A DNA stretch of 64,000 nt from Methanoculleus thermophilus (lineage in GTDB: Archaea > Halobacteriota > Methanomicrobia > Methanomicrobiales > Methanoculleaceae). Under the pieces are notes generated by a model, which worked only from the letters and a program-made list of their open reading frames with translations, searched no databases and was not told the DNA's origin. The position numbers and the translations under genes were made by a program. Positions within the stretch are counted from its first letter, which is position 1. Every line of letters begins with the position of its first letter. Of this stretch, positions 31,286 through 38,677 are shown one piece after another. The stretch spans positions 186,001 to 250,000 of the forward strand of contig NZ_BCNX01000006.1 of assembly GCF_001571405.1 (NCBI RefSeq), in the 5' to 3' direction.

Positions 31286-32116
31286 CTAAAACTGACTCGC
31301 CGTCAGGCAATATGTCCATAGGACTGCCGAACCCGCGCTGTCCTGCCGCCTCTCTTCGCAAATCCCATACATGGACTGCGTCCCCTCATAATTTCCAATC
31401 CAATCAACCGCATACTTCCCGGCGTTTCCCACCCGGCATTCACCCGGTTTCGGCCTGATCTTGCCCTGGTGCAGGATGAAGTCCTTGCTGATGTTGTGGC
31501 AATCCGAACCCGAAAACTCGAGGCCAAACCGTAATGTAACTGTATTTTCAACACCACGCATATCCCCATCGGGGGCGTACCAGAGCAAGTTTGATGTGGA
31601 ATTTTCGAACTCTACCCGGCTCCAAAAGTTCCGAAGGTTTGAGTCGTCGCCCATCCAAGTATCCTCGCGATTTTTCGTAGCGCCCCACTGCCACCAGTAG
31701 TAATGATCTCTGCCCTGCTCGTCGGTCAGGTCTAACGCATAGAGAACCAGTGCATTGTCGGAATCTGCCAGGACCACGCCGTCGTTGTTCCCGATTTCCA
31801 GACTGCCGCTCCATGCCGACACATACCGGATATTCGGCGTCGCACCCGCCCCCTGAGAGGGACCGCGGGTTTCGTCAGGGATGTGCAGTCTTAATGCGCT
31901 CACGGCCTCCGGACCGTATTTCTGCTCCATTCTCCCGGCGTAGGCCATAAATTCTTCTTCAGACATGCCTGAACTATTGGGGGCAATTCGCAGCGTTTCC
32001 TGAGCAGTATTCGCAGAGAGAACTGCCTCGGCACCCACCGCCAGCACGAAGGCTACGCCTGCGATCAGCAGCGCCACGAACAGGACACAGATGCCGATCA
32101 GAAATGTTCTTTTCAT
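31286..32116 (-). CDS. Membrane-anchored or secreted hypothetical protein
   Basis: A 276-residue protein starting with a clear N-terminal hydrophobic segment (MKRTFLIGICVLFVALLIAG), which is either a signal anchor or cleaved peptide. The outside part begins with a short helical region (SEEEFMAYAGRMEQKYG) and then a beta-rich domain with many aromatic residues (DHYYWWQWGATKNRED). Several Cys near the C-terminus (SDCHNI, GECRVG, GICEE, YCLT) could form disulfides. I do not recognise the family. Its 5' leader holds the structured repeat shared with the gene at 34979. The lipoprotein gene follows 75 bases downstream. Confidence 0.7.
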   Translation of the reverse strand: MKRTFLIGICVLFVALLIAGVAFVLAVGAEAVLSANTAQETLRIAPNSSGMSEEEFMAYAGRMEQKYGPEAVSALRLHIPDETRGPSQGAGATPNIRYVSAWSGSLEIGNNDGVVLADSDNALVLYALDLTDEQGRDHYYWWQWGATKNREDTWMGDDSNLRNFWSRVEFENSTSNLLWYAPDGDMRGVENTVTLRFGLEFSGSDCHNISKDFILHQGKIRPKPGECRVGNAGKYAVDWIGNYEGTQSMYGICEERRQDSAGSAVLWTYCLTASQF

Positions 32117-32156
32117 GATTCTTCACTTTCGTTCATGCATACACAAGATCACGGAG

Positions 32157-32312
32157 CCGCAACGACTATCCCCGATGACAGTCAACAGCCCTCTGCCCTC
32201 GAGCACGCGGTGGGGGTCGGGACACGACGCCAATCAGGCTTCCCGGCTCCCTCGGGATTCCGCATGCGGCTTCCCCGATTGAGGCGTCAACGTTCCTCCT
32301 CATAACGTTTCT
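32157..32312 (-). repeat. Structured leader repeat, copy 1
   Basis: About 156 bases upstream of the 31286 gene align end to end with 35539-35697, about three quarters identical by eye. On the minus strand a stem GACT...AGTC encloses the conserved loop CATCGGGGAT; the other copy has GGCT...AGCC in the same place. A CCGCATGCGG hairpin is enclosed by a longer stem (GACGC with GCGTC, CAATC with GATTG). Copies lie in the 5' untranslated region of secreted-protein genes. Confidence 0.6.
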
Positions 32313-32572
32313 GTGCATTCCCTTGAACTGTCATCGCGGTTCAGGCCCGCCGGTTCTCCCAAATTAACAGCGAACAGTCTGATTCGTGAGTGGAACGGCC
32401 GATCTCTAGTCGAAATTTGCCTCGGCCGGCACCTCGCGGGTTTGAGAACACACCCCGACCGAAAACCCGAATAAATTCATCTGATACTTAAATCCTGTGA
32501 TACTGTTGGCCAAATTCCTTCACGGCTCCTCGACGTATAGGAAATGCGCGCTGGCCGGGCTGCCCTCTACCG

Positions 32573-33588
32573 TCACCGGACATCCATCCGCATGAACTTC
32601 CCGTATGCGGCAGCGAAGAAGACCGACGTGAAGGCGACCAACGCCGCGATGCCCCTCCAGATCCTGCTTGTCGCATCATCAGGCGACAGATCCGATGGAT
32701 CGACAACCGTCCATGCCACCGCGTAATAATTCACCATCGGTGAGAAGAGGTTGACCGTATCGGTGACGAACTGCATCTTGTTCTGGTATGTTTTCATCTC
32801 CGCGTCGTATCGGTCGCACTCCTCCTCGTACGCTTTCAGCACTGCTATGTCGCCTGAGATATGGGTCCTCCCGTCAGCGTCCGTCCAAGCCGGCATTTCC
32901 GGTCTCTGCGGCGGGTCGCCCGCGGCCACGCCCCCGAGAATCATCCCGAACAGTTGTAGCACGTAGGCGAGGGCAAAGAAGAGTGCTAGACCGTAGACCA
33001 TCGCATGCCCGCTCTCTTTTGTGACGACCGAGAGAGCAAGAGCGAGGGCGAAGAACGCCAGCAGGTACATGAGTGATACGAACCCGAGAGCTCCGATAGC
33101 GAAAACCTCGTCCGGCGTCGGCACGATCGAGCAGACGAGGAGCACGCGAGGGTGATGGCAAACGCGATAACAAGAGCAACCCCGAGAGCTGCAGCCCCAC
33201 CGAGCGCTTTGCCGTTGATGATCTCGTCCCGGAAGATCGGGTGGGCGAGGAGCGTCTTTAACGTTCGGGTCTCCTTCTCCTTTGATATCAAGTCAAACCC
33301 GGTCGCAATCGCGAGGACGCCCCCGAACGGTACCAGGGAACTGACCAGTTGCATGAAGATGAAGAGGATCGACGGCCGGTCGGGCATCATGCCGGGTCCG
33401 GTGGAGTCCCCCGCTGCCTGTAACTGCTGGTTATACGACTCGAGACTCTGGTTGTACTGGTCGATCCCCTGGTGCATGCCGAGCAGGGCAAACATCAGGA
33501 GCAATGCAAGGATCACCAGGAATTTCCGGCTGGTGAGGTGGTCGGTAAACTCCTTCCCGGCCACGGTGAAGATTCGTTCTGCTGTCAT
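32573..33588 (-). pseudogene. ABC-2 type permease, frameshifted paralogue
   Basis: The N-terminal half reads from ATG 33588 (MTAERIFTVAGKEFTDHLTS) to the frame break at about 33140; the C-terminal half continues in another frame from 33145 to 32573 (LLVCSIVPTPDEV to YGKFMRMDVR). Compared with the intact paralogue at 33824, which reads ITAILLVLSIVP at this point, the shift is a net gain of two bases or loss of one. The joined protein would have six membrane helices and a large outside loop with the shared GDPPQRPE motif. No homopolymer is at the break, so decay is more likely than read error. No ATPase gene is adjacent. Confidence 0.75.
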
Positions 33589-33614
33589 GAATTCACTCTG
33601 TTATCCTCGTCGCT

Positions 33615-33734
33615 CTAGAGCGAGCCCCCGTCAATGGTCACGGCACACAACTCGTTCTCCACGCTGACCGGTATCACTGCCATACAGACAAGGGCGGCGG
33701 CAGCGCATGCTCCGAACATTTTCTTCTGTTTCAT
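33615..33734 (-). CDS. 39-residue secreted-peptide-like protein
   Basis: Between the two permease genes an ATG at 33734 is preceded at good distance by GAGGTGAAA, the same ribosome site used by the secreted-protein genes at 35497 and 37844. The 39 codons give MKQKKMFGACAAAALVCMAV as a basic start plus hydrophobic core, then a short tail with one Cys and acidic residues ending in TIDGGSL before TAG. It looks like a signal peptide with a very short mature part, or a small membrane peptide. It could be the cargo or a regulator of the flanking permeases. No family is recognised. Confidence 0.5.
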   Translation of the reverse strand: MKQKKMFGACAAAALVCMAVIPVSVENELCAVTIDGGSL

Positions 33735-33823
33735 GATGGTTTCACCTCATCTTCACGGAACCCTAGCAGTCCGGCGGGGAACCGGGAAGAGGACACACTT
33801 CTCCGTGCCGCCGCTCCCCGCCC

Positions 33824-34876
33824 TCACCGAATGTCCATCCGCATGAACACCCCGTACGCGGCGGCGAAGAAGACCGACGGGAAGACGATCAGACCCACGA
33901 TACCTGCCCAGACACTGCCAAGAGATTCCGGAAGCGATCGCTCTTGGGGCGCAGAAATGACATCGGCTACAGTCTGGTAACTCTTCTGCGGCGAGAGAAG
34001 CGTGACCACATTGGTGACGAGTCTCTTCTTCTCGGTATACGCCGCCAGGTCCTCCTGATACTCTTTCAACGCTTCGTGCCGAGCGGAATCAGCACCCTGG
34101 GCGACATACGACCCGGTTGCATTGGAGACGTATGTGAATGTGAGTTCCTTGACCGCCGGTGTTTCGGGGCGTTGCGGCGGGTCGCCTGCGACAAGCCCTC
34201 CAACCGTCGCCCCGAGCACCGGGAGGAGCGACGAGACGACGAAGAGGACCACGAGGGTGAAGATCAACGCGTTGCCGCTCTCCCGGGTGACCGCCGAGGT
34301 CGCTAGAGCGACGGTAAACCAGGCGATCAGGAAGAGGAGCGAAACTACCCCGAAGATCAGGATAGCGACGACCTCGCCCGCCGTCGGGACGATCGAGAGC
34401 ACGAGGAGGATGGCGGTGATGAGGGCAAGGGCAAGCCCCACGACGACTCCCAGGGCGGCGGCGCCCCCGAGTGCTTTGCCGACGATGACCTCGTCGCGGT
34501 AGACCGGGTGCGCAAGGAGGGTTTTGAGCGATCGGGTCTCTTTCTCGCGGGTGACCAGGTCGAACCCGGCTGCGATGGCAAGCAGTGCGCCGAGCGTCAT
34601 CGTGGTCCCGGTCATGGAGCTGAAGACGTATAGGATCGAGGGCTTGCCCGGCATCTCAAGCCACCAGGCCCCGAGTTCCTGCAGGTCCCGGTACTCGTCT
34701 GCCGCCTGCATCGCTTTGTTGTACGAAGCCAGGGCGTCATCGTAGCGCTCGATCCCTTGGGCCATACCGACCATGGCGATGATGAGATACAGGGCGAAGA
34801 TCAGGAGGAACCGCCGGCTCGTGAAGAGGTCAGAGAACTCTTTTGCGGCTACAATGAGGCTGCGTTCTGCGGTCAT
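33824..34876 (-). CDS. ABC-2 type transporter permease
   Basis: A 350-residue membrane protein of the NosY/ABC-2 group. An N-terminal cytoplasmic segment (MTAERSLIVAAKEFSDLFTS) and helix one are followed by a ~60-residue outside loop, the cytoplasmic coupling phrase GFDLVTREKETRSLKTLLAH (typical of these permeases), four membrane helices, another long outside loop with GDPPQRPE, and a final helix. It needs an ATPase partner that is not in the window. It is a clear paralogue of the broken gene downstream, with the small peptide gene between them. Start ATG 34876 has GAGAGAAAA upstream. Confidence 0.85.
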   Translation of the reverse strand: MTAERSLIVAAKEFSDLFTSRRFLLIFALYLIIAMVGMAQGIERYDDALASYNKAMQAADEYRDLQELGAWWLEMPGKPSILYVFSSMTGTTMTLGALLAIAAGFDLVTREKETRSLKTLLAHPVYRDEVIVGKALGGAAALGVVVGLALALITAILLVLSIVPTAGEVVAILIFGVVSLLFLIAWFTVALATSAVTRESGNALIFTLVVLFVVSSLLPVLGATVGGLVAGDPPQRPETPAVKELTFTYVSNATGSYVAQGADSARHEALKEYQEDLAAYTEKKRLVTNVVTLLSPQKSYQTVADVISAPQERSLPESLGSVWAGIVGLIVFPSVFFAAAYGVFMRMDIR

Positions 34877-34951
34877 GGGATGTTTTCTCTCTGGTTTCCG
34901 GTCCTGACGCCAGATCTCCCCAGGTCGATCGGTAACCCAGTCAAGAACAAA

Positions 34952-34971
34952 GGGTGCCGTTTACGGCACCC
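34952..34971 (-). terminator. Hairpin between secreted-protein gene and permease gene
   Basis: A perfect nine-base stem with a two-base loop (GGGTGCCGT-TT-ACGGCACCC on the plus strand) eight bases after the stop codon of the 34979 gene. On the minus strand it is followed by TTTGTTCTT. It may terminate or attenuate the transcript before the permease gene. Confidence 0.5.
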
Positions 34972-34978
34972 GAGATCG

Positions 34979-35497
34979 TTATGTTTGCAGTTTAGTTGTT
35001 CCATCAAACCAGGTATTTCCGGCAAGACTGATCTTCTCGACGACAACCCGATAGATATCGCCTTCCTGGAGACGCTGGTCGTACCGCACGTGACGCTCAC
35101 CGTTCTCGGTGAACGGGAGCCATGGCCCATCGTCCTGCGCGAGGACGCGGTTGTTGCTGTCGACCAGTTTCAGTCGCAGGTCGCTCCATTCGCCGTCGAC
35201 CTGATAGAACTTCATGTCGACCTGAATGGAGTTGTAGACGCCGGAGGGCACCGCAAACTGAAAGGTCCGACTGGGCTGCGATTCAGTGATGGTACTTCCA
35301 AAGGGAAATGTAGCGACATCCTGTACACCAATTTCTCCTAAAATCTCTCCAGAAAGCACATCAACATCCGTGGCATCGCCCGCATCCGATGATGGGGGCT
35401 GGAGATATACGGCAAAGTCGGCCACTTCTTCCGCCGAAACTCCCCCAAAGCAGAGCAGCACGAGGAGTGCGGCTATGCCAATCTGCAATAGTTTCAT
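34979..35497 (-). CDS. Secreted PPC-like beta-sandwich protein
   Basis: A 172-residue exported protein: signal peptide MKLLQIGIAALLVLLCFGGVSA, a short Ser/Asp-rich linker, then a beta-sandwich that resembles bacterial pre-peptidase C-terminal (PPC) domains (FQFAVPSGVYNSIQVDMKFY, then SDLRLKLVDSNNRVLAQDDG). The neighbouring secreted protein at 36716 has the same pattern (HQFYVGSGVEYLEVYLNWG, DSLALTIYTPSG). ATG 35497 follows GAGGTGAAAACC. A ~190-base leader with the structured repeat and a TATA box precedes it. It probably stays outside the cell, bound to the surface or to a partner. Confidence 0.7.
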   Translation of the reverse strand: MKLLQIGIAALLVLLCFGGVSAEEVADFAVYLQPPSSDAGDATDVDVLSGEILGEIGVQDVATFPFGSTITESQPSRTFQFAVPSGVYNSIQVDMKFYQVDGEWSDLRLKLVDSNNRVLAQDDGPWLPFTENGERHVRYDQRLQEGDIYRVVVEKISLAGNTWFDGTTKLQT

Positions 35498-35538
35498 GGT
35501 TTTCACCTCATTCACGCGTGCTCCGGAAGGCCGTAGAA

Positions 35539-35697
35539 CCGCAACGGCTATCCCCGATGGGAGCCAACAGCCCTGTTGCCCTCCGGGCACGCTGTGGGAG
35601 TCCGGGATCCGACGTCAATCAGAGTTCCCCGCCCCCGCGGGATACCGCATGCGGTATCACTGATGGAGACTTCGCTGTTCTTCTTTATACCGTTTCT
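35539..35697 (-). repeat. Structured leader repeat, copy 2
   Basis: The second copy of the ~156-base leader repeat, ahead of the 34979 gene. It contains the perfect 18-base palindrome GATACCGCATGCGGTATC at 35641-35658, the stem GGCT/AGCC around the conserved loop CATCGGGGAT, and a long-range stem (ATCAG with CTGAT). Pairs that differ from copy 1 mostly change on both sides, which supports a folded RNA. Confidence 0.6.
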
Positions 35698-35850: not shown

Positions 35851-36696
35851 TCACGACGAACGATCGCCAACGTGGGGGACCGGGTCAAACCTCAGTTGAG
35901 AGAGGAGGCCGTCGATATCCCTCCCCGGGGCTGATCCCTCCAGCGGGTGCTGCCGCGCTCCGGGCCGGTTCGGTATAATGATCCGCATGTCCGTCAGTAT
36001 ACGAGAATAGTTCTCGGCGAGAGTATACCGCACACACCGCCCATCCCTCTCTGCGATCACAACACCCAGATCTTCCAAGTATCGTAGGTGCTCATAAACT
36101 GTAGTTCCTGATAACTCGACGTTTTCTGCAATCTCTTCGTTGCATGCGCCTTGATTGAGATAGATTTCTGTTATAATTCTCCGCAGACTCTCGTTCCTCA
36201 GTGCGATGATGAGGGTCTCCTCCTCGGCCGAGTATGGAGCATCTGCAACGAAGTAATGAGTCCTCCCTCTTTCCAGTATCGTCTTTAAGAGACCCACGGA
36301 TTCCATCGTTTTCATATGGTAATCAAGCGTCCCTCGCGTCAGAGGCACACGCCTCAATATCTCCCTGAAGTGCAATCCCGGGTTCCTCTTGACAAATCTC
36401 AAGATCTTGCGTCTCTGCGGACTCTCAAGGGCGTTTTCTTTGCAAATCCGTTTGTACCCGAGGTATCCGGCGGCCTTCAACGGAATGAGGGTCTCGATCG
36501 GGGCTGCCGTCAACTGGGGAAATACAGACAGCAGCAGAAAGAGCCAGAGCGGTATCGGGTCTACCTCCTGCACCTTCTCGCCCGATATGGACATGCCGGG
36601 CTCTTGCCCGACGTTTCTTGAGGGCCGGACCGTGTATTCGGTGGCATCGGCAACCGCTACCAGCAGCACCAGAAAAAGGATCGAGAGGATAAGCAA
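35851..36696 (-). CDS. Membrane-tethered regulator with two winged-helix domains
   Basis: A 281-residue protein from TTG 36696 (GGTGG ahead, 19 bases past the preceding stop). Helix one (LLILSILFLVLLVAVADA) leads into a ~28-residue outside segment beginning with YTVRPS, then a second membrane helix (PLWLFLLLSVFP, ~49-65). The cytoplasmic part has two winged helix-turn-helix domains: residues ~92-150 (RRKILRFVKRNPGLHFREIL) and ~167-228 (NEEIAENVELSGTTVYEHLR). It is best read as a one-component sensor that binds an outside ligand and controls nearby promoters. The ~45-residue tail is Pro/Arg-rich. An ATG-start longer frame overlaps the upstream gene and is rejected. Confidence 0.75.
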   Translation of the reverse strand: MLILSILFLVLLVAVADATEYTVRPSRNVGQEPGMSISGEKVQEVDPIPLWLFLLLSVFPQLTAAPIETLIPLKAAGYLGYKRICKENALESPQRRKILRFVKRNPGLHFREILRRVPLTRGTLDYHMKTMESVGLLKTILERGRTHYFVADAPYSAEEETLIIALRNESLRRIITEIYLNQGACNEEIAENVELSGTTVYEHLRYLEDLGVVIAERDGRCVRYTLAENYSRILTDMRIIIPNRPGARQHPLEGSAPGRDIDGLLSQLRFDPVPHVGDRSS

Positions 36697-36715
36697 CCGG
36701 AGATGTCCACCGGGC

Positions 36716-37168
36716 CTAGTATTGGTAGAGGTTGAGGGTGTATGATCTCTCTGATGATACCTTCTCGCCGTAAACATCGAGCGTCCAGGTTCCCCGGTCC
36801 ACATAATTGCCATCTGGGTCAATGTCGATATGAATCTTGCCATCCATCATTCCGTCGCTACTGTCGCGGAACGTGCCGATCTTGCTTCCCGAAGGGGTGT
36901 AGATGGTCAACGCCAGAGAATCGGAGGTCGAACCCCAGTTAAGGTATACCTCAAGGTACTCGACGCCGCTTCCGACATAAAATTGGTGCCTGTTGGTCTC
37001 GCCCTGGCCGACGGTGTCGGAGAGCCCCAATATCGTCACCGGGTCATCTGACACCGAAGGGCGGACTGTGTATCCGACGCCTTCGTTCGCCGATACAGGA
37101 GGCACGGCAAGGAAGGCAACGGCGAGCAGCAGGGCAAAAGCCCCGTATTTTCTCTTTGCCGATGTCAT
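36716..37168 (-). CDS. Secreted PPC-like protein next to the regulator
   Basis: A 150-residue exported protein: signal peptide (MTSAKRKYGAFALLLAVAFL, cleaved near SANE), mature start GVGYTVRPSVSDDP, then one beta-sandwich resembling PPC domains (QFYVGSGVEYLEVYLNWG, LALTIYTPSGSKIGTFRD, GTWTLDVYGEKV). Its YTVRPS matches the outside segment of the regulator encoded 19 bases downstream, so the two probably belong to one system. The promoter carries the shared GGTGTTTGTCCC element. It could be the ligand, a decoy or a surface partner of the regulator. Confidence 0.7.
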   Translation of the reverse strand: MTSAKRKYGAFALLLAVAFLAVPPVSANEGVGYTVRPSVSDDPVTILGLSDTVGQGETNRHQFYVGSGVEYLEVYLNWGSTSDSLALTIYTPSGSKIGTFRDSSDGMMDGKIHIDIDPDGNYVDRGTWTLDVYGEKVSSERSYTLNLYQY

Positions 37169-37221: not shown

Positions 37222-37843
37222 TATTCTCGTCTCCGTCCGCTTCGAATCCCGGGAACGAACATGCTTGAGGACCGTCACGCCCGTACCGTGCCCGAAGTTA
37301 TCATATCCAAAGAAATTGGTGCAGTACGGTCACACCGGGGCGGCCTGCGCGCAGTGAATGAAGAGAGGGGCCCTGCACCGGATCTGCTGGAACATCCCTG
37401 ATCATACCGGCGATACTTTTGTCATTGGGAGGGAATTCCTTCGGGACGGGTCTGCCGCAGAGGAGACCATTCCGGTGATCATAGGGCGTTAGAACTGCTT
37501 TTTTTTTTAAAGAGACGGTTTCGAGTTGGTGTTTGTCCCATAAACAGTTTATCCCGAAACGACCCAGTGAACAATTGTGGGCGCCGCAGGCAGCGCCTGC
37601 ACCGGTGCGGAGGTTCGCCCGGCCGGTTTGCCAAACGTCCGGGTAAACGTCTCGCATGCCCGGAGGCAATGGGAACGCACACGTTTTGCATACTAAAATG
37701 TGTGCCTCTCCTGTCTTCAAGGGGCGCTTGGAAGATAGTAACTGGAAACACGAAGATGCGGGCACCATGTTCATGGCAGTTATCCCGGTGAATGCGGGTG
37801 TCATCCCGGCGAGTTATATTCCAATCATGATTGAGGTGAAGAG
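37222..37843. other. Gene-free region and long leader of the 37844 gene
   Basis: About 620 bases with no convincing gene; open frames on both strands have odd composition. It includes an A/T-rich patch at 37497-37512, the third copy of the shared element (37526-37545), and a strong hairpin GCAGGC-AGC-GCCTGC near 37585-37600. The right 280 bases would form an unusually long leader if transcription starts just after the element. Confidence 0.45.
37526..37552 (+). promoter_or_regulatory. Shared element, plus-strand copy
   Basis: TTGGTGTTTGTCCCATAAAC (37526-37545) followed by AGTTTAT matches the elements at 37203 and 35698 but points rightward, toward the secreted-protein gene at 37844. The distance to that gene is ~300 bases. 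Confidence 0.5.
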
Positions 37844-38677
37844 ATGAAAAATAAGCGGCTCACGGCGGCATTTGTTATATTCATGCTGACGCTATCGGTC
37901 TGCCCGGGGTTTGCTTCCGCAGTCCAGATTGTCGATGAGTGCGGCATAGATATCGAACACGGGGAACGAACGAACAGCGTTGAACTCCTGAAGGCCGGTT
38001 TGAACAAACGAGAGCCCGTCACCATCACACTCGGAGGGCTTCCTTTCTCAAAGGGTGGGCGGAACGCGTCGTATTCCGATTTGGAGAACTTCACCGCCGC
38101 CACGTGGGGCCTGATGCAGGAGCACTACCTATATCCCAACGGGCCCGTCATCGGTTTCGGCTACGACGTCGATGGGTATCTCCGAGTGAGTCTCTGGAAC
38201 GGCCCGCCCCTCCCGGAAAACGCCTCTTCCGTGGGTTCACTGCACACGATGCTTGATGAACGGGCAAAGGGAATGGGAATTGAGAATATCCCTGTGAAGT
38301 TCACGGTATTCATCTCCCCTCCGGAGTTGGTCCTTGATGGCGACCGGATGAGCCCCTCGGACCGTACCGGCTCCTACGCACAGTCGCCGGAGAACTGCCC
38401 GGCGAAAGTCACCTCCCTCGATGCATTGACCGTGGCGCTTCGCGATCCGGAGGTCGTCGGGTTGCTGGAGAACAAGAGTATCGAGACGATCACGTTCTCA
38501 AAAGGCACCTATGCCGACAGAAATATGAATTACACCCAGATGGTCTTCCGCCCGGAGGACCCGGATCCCGGCGACTGCATGACCGCTCCGACGATCGTGG
38601 TTCAGGTTAACGAGTCGTGCGGGGTTTATGCCGCCTACGAGACCTACCCTTCGCATATTCCGGGCTGTAAGTTATGA
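37844..38677 (+). CDS. Secreted hypothetical protein
   Basis: A 277-residue exported protein. The signal peptide is MKNKRLTAAFVIFMLTLSVC with cleavage near FASA. The mature part has five or more Cys (DECGID, ENCPAK, GDCMTA, ESCGVY, PGCKL), which suggests disulfide bonds, and regions such as EPVTITLGGLPFSKGG and GFGYDVDGYLRVSLWNG. No family is recognised. GAGGTGAAGAG precedes the ATG, the same ribosome site as other secreted genes in this block, and a shared promoter element lies ~300 bases upstream. It is the only rightward member of the block. Confidence 0.7.
   Translation: MKNKRLTAAFVIFMLTLSVCPGFASAVQIVDECGIDIEHGERTNSVELLKAGLNKREPVTITLGGLPFSKGGRNASYSDLENFTAATWGLMQEHYLYPNGPVIGFGYDVDGYLRVSLWNGPPLPENASSVGSLHTMLDERAKGMGIENIPVKFTVFISPPELVLDGDRMSPSDRTGSYAQSPENCPAKVTSLDALTVALRDPEVVGLLENKSIETITFSKGTYADRNMNYTQMVFRPEDPDPGDCMTAPTIVVQVNESCGVYAAYETYPSHIPGCKL

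Follow-up and report, generated by a model that had tools for sequence, protein, structure and literature searches.

Structured leader RNAs with a candidate role in the translation of exported proteins in Methanoculleus and related methanogens

Two segments, 32157-32312 and 35539-35697, of the 64,000-nucleotide stretch of Methanoculleus thermophilus DNA analyzed here (NCBI RefSeq assembly GCF_001571405.1, contig NZ_BCNX01000006.1, positions 186,001 to 250,000; termed the window) raise the question of what such similar sequences are doing in front of two genes. Their end-to-end alignment, described in an original prediction made from the letters alone, covers 162 nt at 78% identity (E 2e-29 within the organism's own genome). 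That prediction placed them in the 5' leaders of secreted-protein genes and took them for a folded cis-regulatory leader or small RNA. The two copies probably belong to a large family of structured 5' leader RNAs controlling the translation of exported proteins in cis in the Methanomicrobiales and related methanogens. Judged from sequence, the best reading, held with the same fair confidence, is that the leaders switch translation of the secretome in the manner of a riboswitch.

Both copies, termed class A, lie on the minus strand, which the original prediction missed, the RNA corresponding to the strand opposite to the one printed and running from 32282 to 32130 in copy 1 and from 35667 to 35509 in copy 2. 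Each begins just past a TATA-like box, extends as far as the Shine-Dalgarno (SD) sequence and is followed, as predicted, by an open reading frame (ORF) with a signal-peptide-like N terminus. With the class A covariance model R1, cmsearch scores copy 1 (32130-32282, model positions 1-158) at 124.4 bits and copy 2 (35509-35667) at 162.8 bits. The fold begins with P1, the CCGCATGCGG hairpin common to both copies (GGGGAAGCCGCATGCGGAATCCC, 32254-32276, in copy 1 and the 18-nt form GATACCGCATGCGGTATC, 35641-35658, in copy 2), followed by the stem-loop P2 (32212-32251 and 35596-35636). The hairpin P4 occupies 32154-32191 with the core GACTGTCATCGGGGATAGTC at 32164-32183 in copy 1, and 35536-35573 with the core GGCTCCCATCGGGGATAGCC at 35546-35565 in copy 2, the stem GACU/AGUC of copy 1 being replaced by GGCU/AGCC in copy 2 around the unchanged CAUCGGGGAU (RNA strand 32183-32164 and 35565-35546). 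The hairpin and the paired change are thus present as claimed. The predicted long-range stem, termed P3, is real, with GCGTGCTCGAGGGC (32195-32208) pairing with GATCTTGTGTATGC (32137-32150) in copy 1 and GCGTGCCCGGAGGGC (35578-35592) pairing with GCCTTCCGGAGCACGC (35516-35531) in copy 2, the latter strand being a candidate anti-SD. Its 3' strand and the ribosome-binding site fall outside the two intervals first given, so that the stem runs past their 3' ends. A putative promoter element of copy 1, the TATA-like box GTTATGAGG within a conserved AGAAACGTTATGAGG block, is placed at 32298-32306 by the class A alignment, and the TATA box GTATAAAG of copy 2 at 35683-35690. The sequence shows a weak SD-like AAAGTGAAG at 32121-32129 for copy 1 and the SD GAGGTG at 35504-35509 for copy 2.

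Further copies were sought in other genomes. A BLAST survey of 61 genomes places class A copies in most genomes of the genus Methanoculleus. The 39-sequence alignment A3 and model R1 (55 pairs) were then run against 232 genomes of the order Methanomicrobiales and 394 of the phylum. Matches lie only in Methanoculleus (28 of 35 genomes, with up to 10 copies each) and in g6, a genus belonging to a different family, in which 9 genomes carry full-length class A leaders (best E 5e-20). Profile searching also finds weaker relatives with the same layout and other sequences, termed class B, one of them in the window. The default RNAalifold structure for class B (R2) is poor, and a hand-drawn one took its place in model R3, which matches 53 of the 232 genomes, spread over 11 of the order's 40 genera and four of its families; the 18 class B genomes outside Methanoculleus were rescanned. 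In the phylum scan R3 has matches outside the order in families f8 (mostly genus g87, probably Methanosarcina and termed Methanosarcina-like) and f30, with E values of 1e-8 to 1e-5. Overall about 240 distinct leader sequences from methane-making archaea were read (114, 97 and 33, with small overlap). Starting from class B alone, a profile expanded to take in class A and g6, and a chimeric leader at L063:13858-14023 (+ strand) joins a 5' domain of class B to a 3' domain of class A; because of these two results, all the leaders are treated as what appears to be one superfamily with at least two classes and exchangeable domains.

The class B leader of the window, also missed by the original prediction, lies at 37576-37735 on the plus strand and scores 126.4 bits with R3, a model whose training alignment contains it. 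Its P3 is formed by CCCGGAGGC (37659-37667) and the anti-SD strand GTCTTCAAG (37713-37721), and the sequence at the SD position, CTTGGAAGA (37727-37735), is complementary to the anti-SD. The gene belonging to this leader is degenerate, having lost its ATG (37576-37800, + strand), and signal-peptide remnants of the MNGKIGMRAFSMLLAVLLVSV type precede an intact gene at 37844-38677 (+ strand), an arrangement seen again at L053:4465-4625.

Two copies could mislead as to whether paired changes exceed chance, and the larger alignments bear out that they do. Among 122 class A and g6 copies (alignment A4), 114 of them distinct, pair counting gives 366 double-changed cells compared with 116 after shuffling (0/500), in permutation tests that, like the partner-swap tests below, ignore phylogeny. 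Changes on both sides are found for 50 of the 55 pairs, and 87% of cells are paired, falling to 36-45% when the partners are slid. The Methanomicrobiales class B alignment A8 has 289 double-changed cells versus 88 shuffled, the other genera of the order 141 versus 53 and the Methanosarcina-like genomes 131 versus 50; slid-partner controls are far lower, and the covariation stands in each group taken alone. Alignments A4, A7, A8 and A9 lean toward the models, having been fitted to them; A2, A3, A5 and A6 are plain and do not. The g6 copies, aligned plainly with MAFFT and independently of the model, again give P1, P2 and P4, and a second aligner setting recovers P3 too. Compensatory changes thus occur across independent copies, as is characteristic of a structured cis-regulatory leader; they are present in all helices and in the distant families, and copies scoring as low as about 28 bits keep the fold. 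In most of the class B copies read (for example in L211, L213 and L233) the P4 loop around UACUURAA is strongly conserved, and it is a candidate contact for a ligand or a protein.

The position of the RNA relative to genes is also consistent. By a hydrophobicity heuristic (not SignalP), signal-peptide-like N termini follow 90 of 112 class A and g6 copies; outside Methanoculleus they follow 26 of 30 class B copies, and outside the order 31 of 34 copies, against a background of 7 in 50 window ORFs. Covarying copies before secreted-protein genes, which the original prediction named as support for its claim, exist in number. In most copies the start codon lies 5-16 nt past the end of the RNA, and the leaders thus keep a constant position before functionally coherent genes, as expected of a cis-regulatory element. 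In g6 a TATATA box sits mostly 22-27 nt upstream of the first base of the model, and the RNA therefore probably accounts for the entire 5' untranslated region (UTR). The downstream proteins include a subtilase (Peptidase_S8), a C39-like peptidase, a PD40 propeller, DUF6345 and PepSY/DUF4901, and their mature parts form 26 clusters without mutual BLASTP similarity at 1e-4. Duplication of a single gene family is ruled out by these 26 clusters.

Runs of three to five leaders within 8-14 kb occur in L233, L238 and L248 (Methanosarcina-like) and in L134 (Methanoculleus), mostly with a different exported protein behind each leader. Near-identical leaders in these runs bear different SD/anti-SD types, which suggests, from the sequences, that cassettes have been exchanged among leaders.

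The arrangement at the ribosome-binding site, not noticed in the original prediction, is what points to a switch. The leaders share a platform in which CCCGGAGGC pairs with GCCUCCGGG and GGAGG comes directly after the second strand. GCCUCCGGG, the 3' strand of P3, can pair either with the 5' strand or with the SD sequence (CGGAGG), and because P3 and the anti-SD:SD hairpin both use this strand, they exclude each other. In class B the 5' strand is nearly invariant and the other helices vary freely. If the second helix matters, each P3 3' strand should match its own SD better than swapped ones, and in the Methanosarcina-like copies the own duplex has an energy of -9.45 kcal/mol compared with -7.57 kcal/mol (sd 0.34) for swapped partners (0/10000 permutations), with the matched anti-SD/SD types CCUCCG/CGGAGG, CCUCCUG/CAGGAG, CCUCCUAG/CUAGGAG, CCUCU/AGAGG and CCUCG/CGAGG. 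The same test gives 0/2000 for class B and leans the same way for class A (41/2000). In class B the two folds differ little in energy (median difference 1.1 kcal/mol, at most 3 kcal/mol in 26 of 49 leaders), and in f8/f30 they differ by 1.8 kcal/mol (at most 3 kcal/mol in 19 of 32). Exclusive helices at the SD, as expected of a translational riboswitch, are therefore found in class B and f8/f30 and more weakly in class A.

On this basis the following sequence of events is proposed. Transcription would start about 22-27 nt 3' of the TATA box, at P1, and the RNA folds into P1, P2 and a 3' domain in which the long helix P3 encloses the hairpin P4 and ends a few nt before the SD. With P3 formed the SD would be free and translation on; were P3 opened or kept from forming, its 3' strand would form a hairpin with the SD and translation would be off. 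A signal, metabolite or protein in nature, may select between the folds by way of P4 and P1/P2. The structure, its covariation, the gene context, the exclusive helices and the tracking of the SD by the anti-SD come from the computations, and transcription, switching, the ligand and the direction of regulation are inferences. The relation of P3, anti-SD and SD yields precise predictions for three-way compensatory mutants. A more far-reaching proposal, which we regard as possible and put forward tentatively, is that methanogenic archaea possess a translational riboswitch, or an export-sensing protein-RNA switch, acting across the whole secretome. In it, interchangeable P4 sensor hairpins (class A or B) would be set on one SD-competition platform, present in up to a dozen or more copies per genome, and recombination would have carried these cassettes to dozens of exported proteins unrelated to one another.

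Several results weigh against a switch of this kind. The SD-free fold is favored by about 7 kcal/mol in g6 and in class A, the class that holds both copies described above, and the SD of copy 1 is weak. The partner-swap test is not significant in g6 (1454/2000), the swap tests are uncorrected for relatedness, and column-wise anti-SD/SD covariation in the Methanomicrobiales alignment A8 is modest (12 versus 7.0 cells, 15/500), the stronger test being the partner swap in other families. Folding of class A leaders gives no excess of SD exposure (0.35 compared with 0.41 shuffled), and for that reason a default "on" state is not claimed as shown. Some copies also precede degenerate ORFs or ORFs lacking a signal peptide. 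In one alternative the leader is constitutive, a fixed 5' structure stabilizing the mRNA or presenting the SD of highly expressed exported proteins so that initiation is efficient, without any switching. The energetic preference for the P3-formed, SD-free ground state in class A and g6 fits such a leader, as does a 5' UTR structured over its whole length, and the link to one functional class could stem from high expression. It does not account for the near-equal folds of class B and f8/f30, for the way in which the P3 3' strand and the SD covary, or for a P3 that is near-invariant while other helices vary, and it is considered unlikely.

The remaining alternatives are less probable still. The second possibility in the original prediction, a trans-acting small RNA gene lying upstream of secreted-protein genes by chance, would explain a compact fold with its own TATA-like box; the fold reaches the SD, however, with the start codon 5-16 nt further on in most copies, no poly-U terminator before the ORF was seen in the leaders examined, and the anti-SD:SD relation lies within one mRNA, making a cis leader the part of that prediction that stands and a small RNA very unlikely. 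Duplication or gene conversion of a promoter-leader-signal-peptide cassette, the RNA fold having no function, is given an equally slight chance: copies cluster within a few kb and share promoter and signal-peptide sequence, and mosaics such as L063:13858-14023 occur, but this process accounts for the spread of the leaders and not for compensatory changes that affect every helix and extend to distant families, or for a fold retained at about 28 bits. Least credible is the end of a mobile element, a miniature inverted-repeat transposable element (MITE) or transposon. Several copies per genome, some of them close together, might suggest one, yet the orientation and spacing to signal-peptide genes are fixed, the internal hairpins, which covary, are the only inverted repeats seen, and the mature proteins fall into 26 unrelated clusters, which likewise argues against a MITE. 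The aligned unit shows no terminal inverted repeats, target-site duplications not having been searched for. A MITE or transposon end is rejected on the grounds of orientation, spacing and covariation, and no signature of either was found.

The preferred reading, a cis-acting leader with competing helices at the SD, can be compared with known systems. With Rfam 15 at the gathering score the window gives two tRNAs only, and at gathering and relaxed E-value thresholds there is no match for the class A, class B, g6 or f8/f30 leaders; no published description was found in the open-access literature, and the family is apparently undescribed. Translation-controlling riboswitches that act by SD sequestration are alike in having a structured 5' leader, a sensor-like conserved domain and an anti-SD strand shared by two exclusive helices. 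The leaders here differ in that their targets share export rather than a pathway, in that they were found only in archaea and are not in Rfam, and in having no known ligand, which makes them candidate members only. Archaeal ribosomal-protein leaders (S15 in Methanomicrobia, eL15 and L4; PMC7247131) are likewise cis leaders, from the same archaeal class and found by covariation, but precede ribosomal-protein genes, whereas the genes downstream here encode exported proteins, for example Peptidase_S8, C39-like and DUF6345 proteins. The L7Ae k-turn leader (PMC5539422) is an archaeal leader also proposed to mask the SD, with no link to export, and no k-turn consensus was recognized by eye in the conserved loops of the present family. 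The crcB/fluoride riboswitch (PMC2864571), a leader RNA class of bacteria and archaea, differs in its genes, and the leaders here have no Rfam match. Only a handful of cis-regulatory RNAs are known or predicted in archaea (PMC7247131). If the reading is correct, the leaders would constitute an unusually large archaeal RNA regulon, spanning 11 of 40 Methanomicrobiales genera and Methanosarcina-like genomes and linked to exported proteins instead of a single pathway, and the way in which methanogens co-ordinate the output of cell-surface and secreted proteins would become directly testable.

The genes behind the two class A copies of the window both encode exported proteins with signal-peptide-like N termini and no Pfam family, one of 276 aa (31286-32116, - strand), with relatives in Methanoculleus and its closest named relative in Methanoculleus sp. 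FWC-SCC3, and one of 172 aa (34979-35497, - strand). Nearby, a winged-helix-like ORF (35851-36843, - strand) has the N-terminal sequence ATEYTVRPS, which also occurs in the neighboring exported protein at 36716-37168; there is no leader match upstream of either. Two overlapping ORFs in different frames (32573-33588, - strand) jointly resemble the intact permease-like gene at 33824-34876 and are probably a frameshifted paralog of it.

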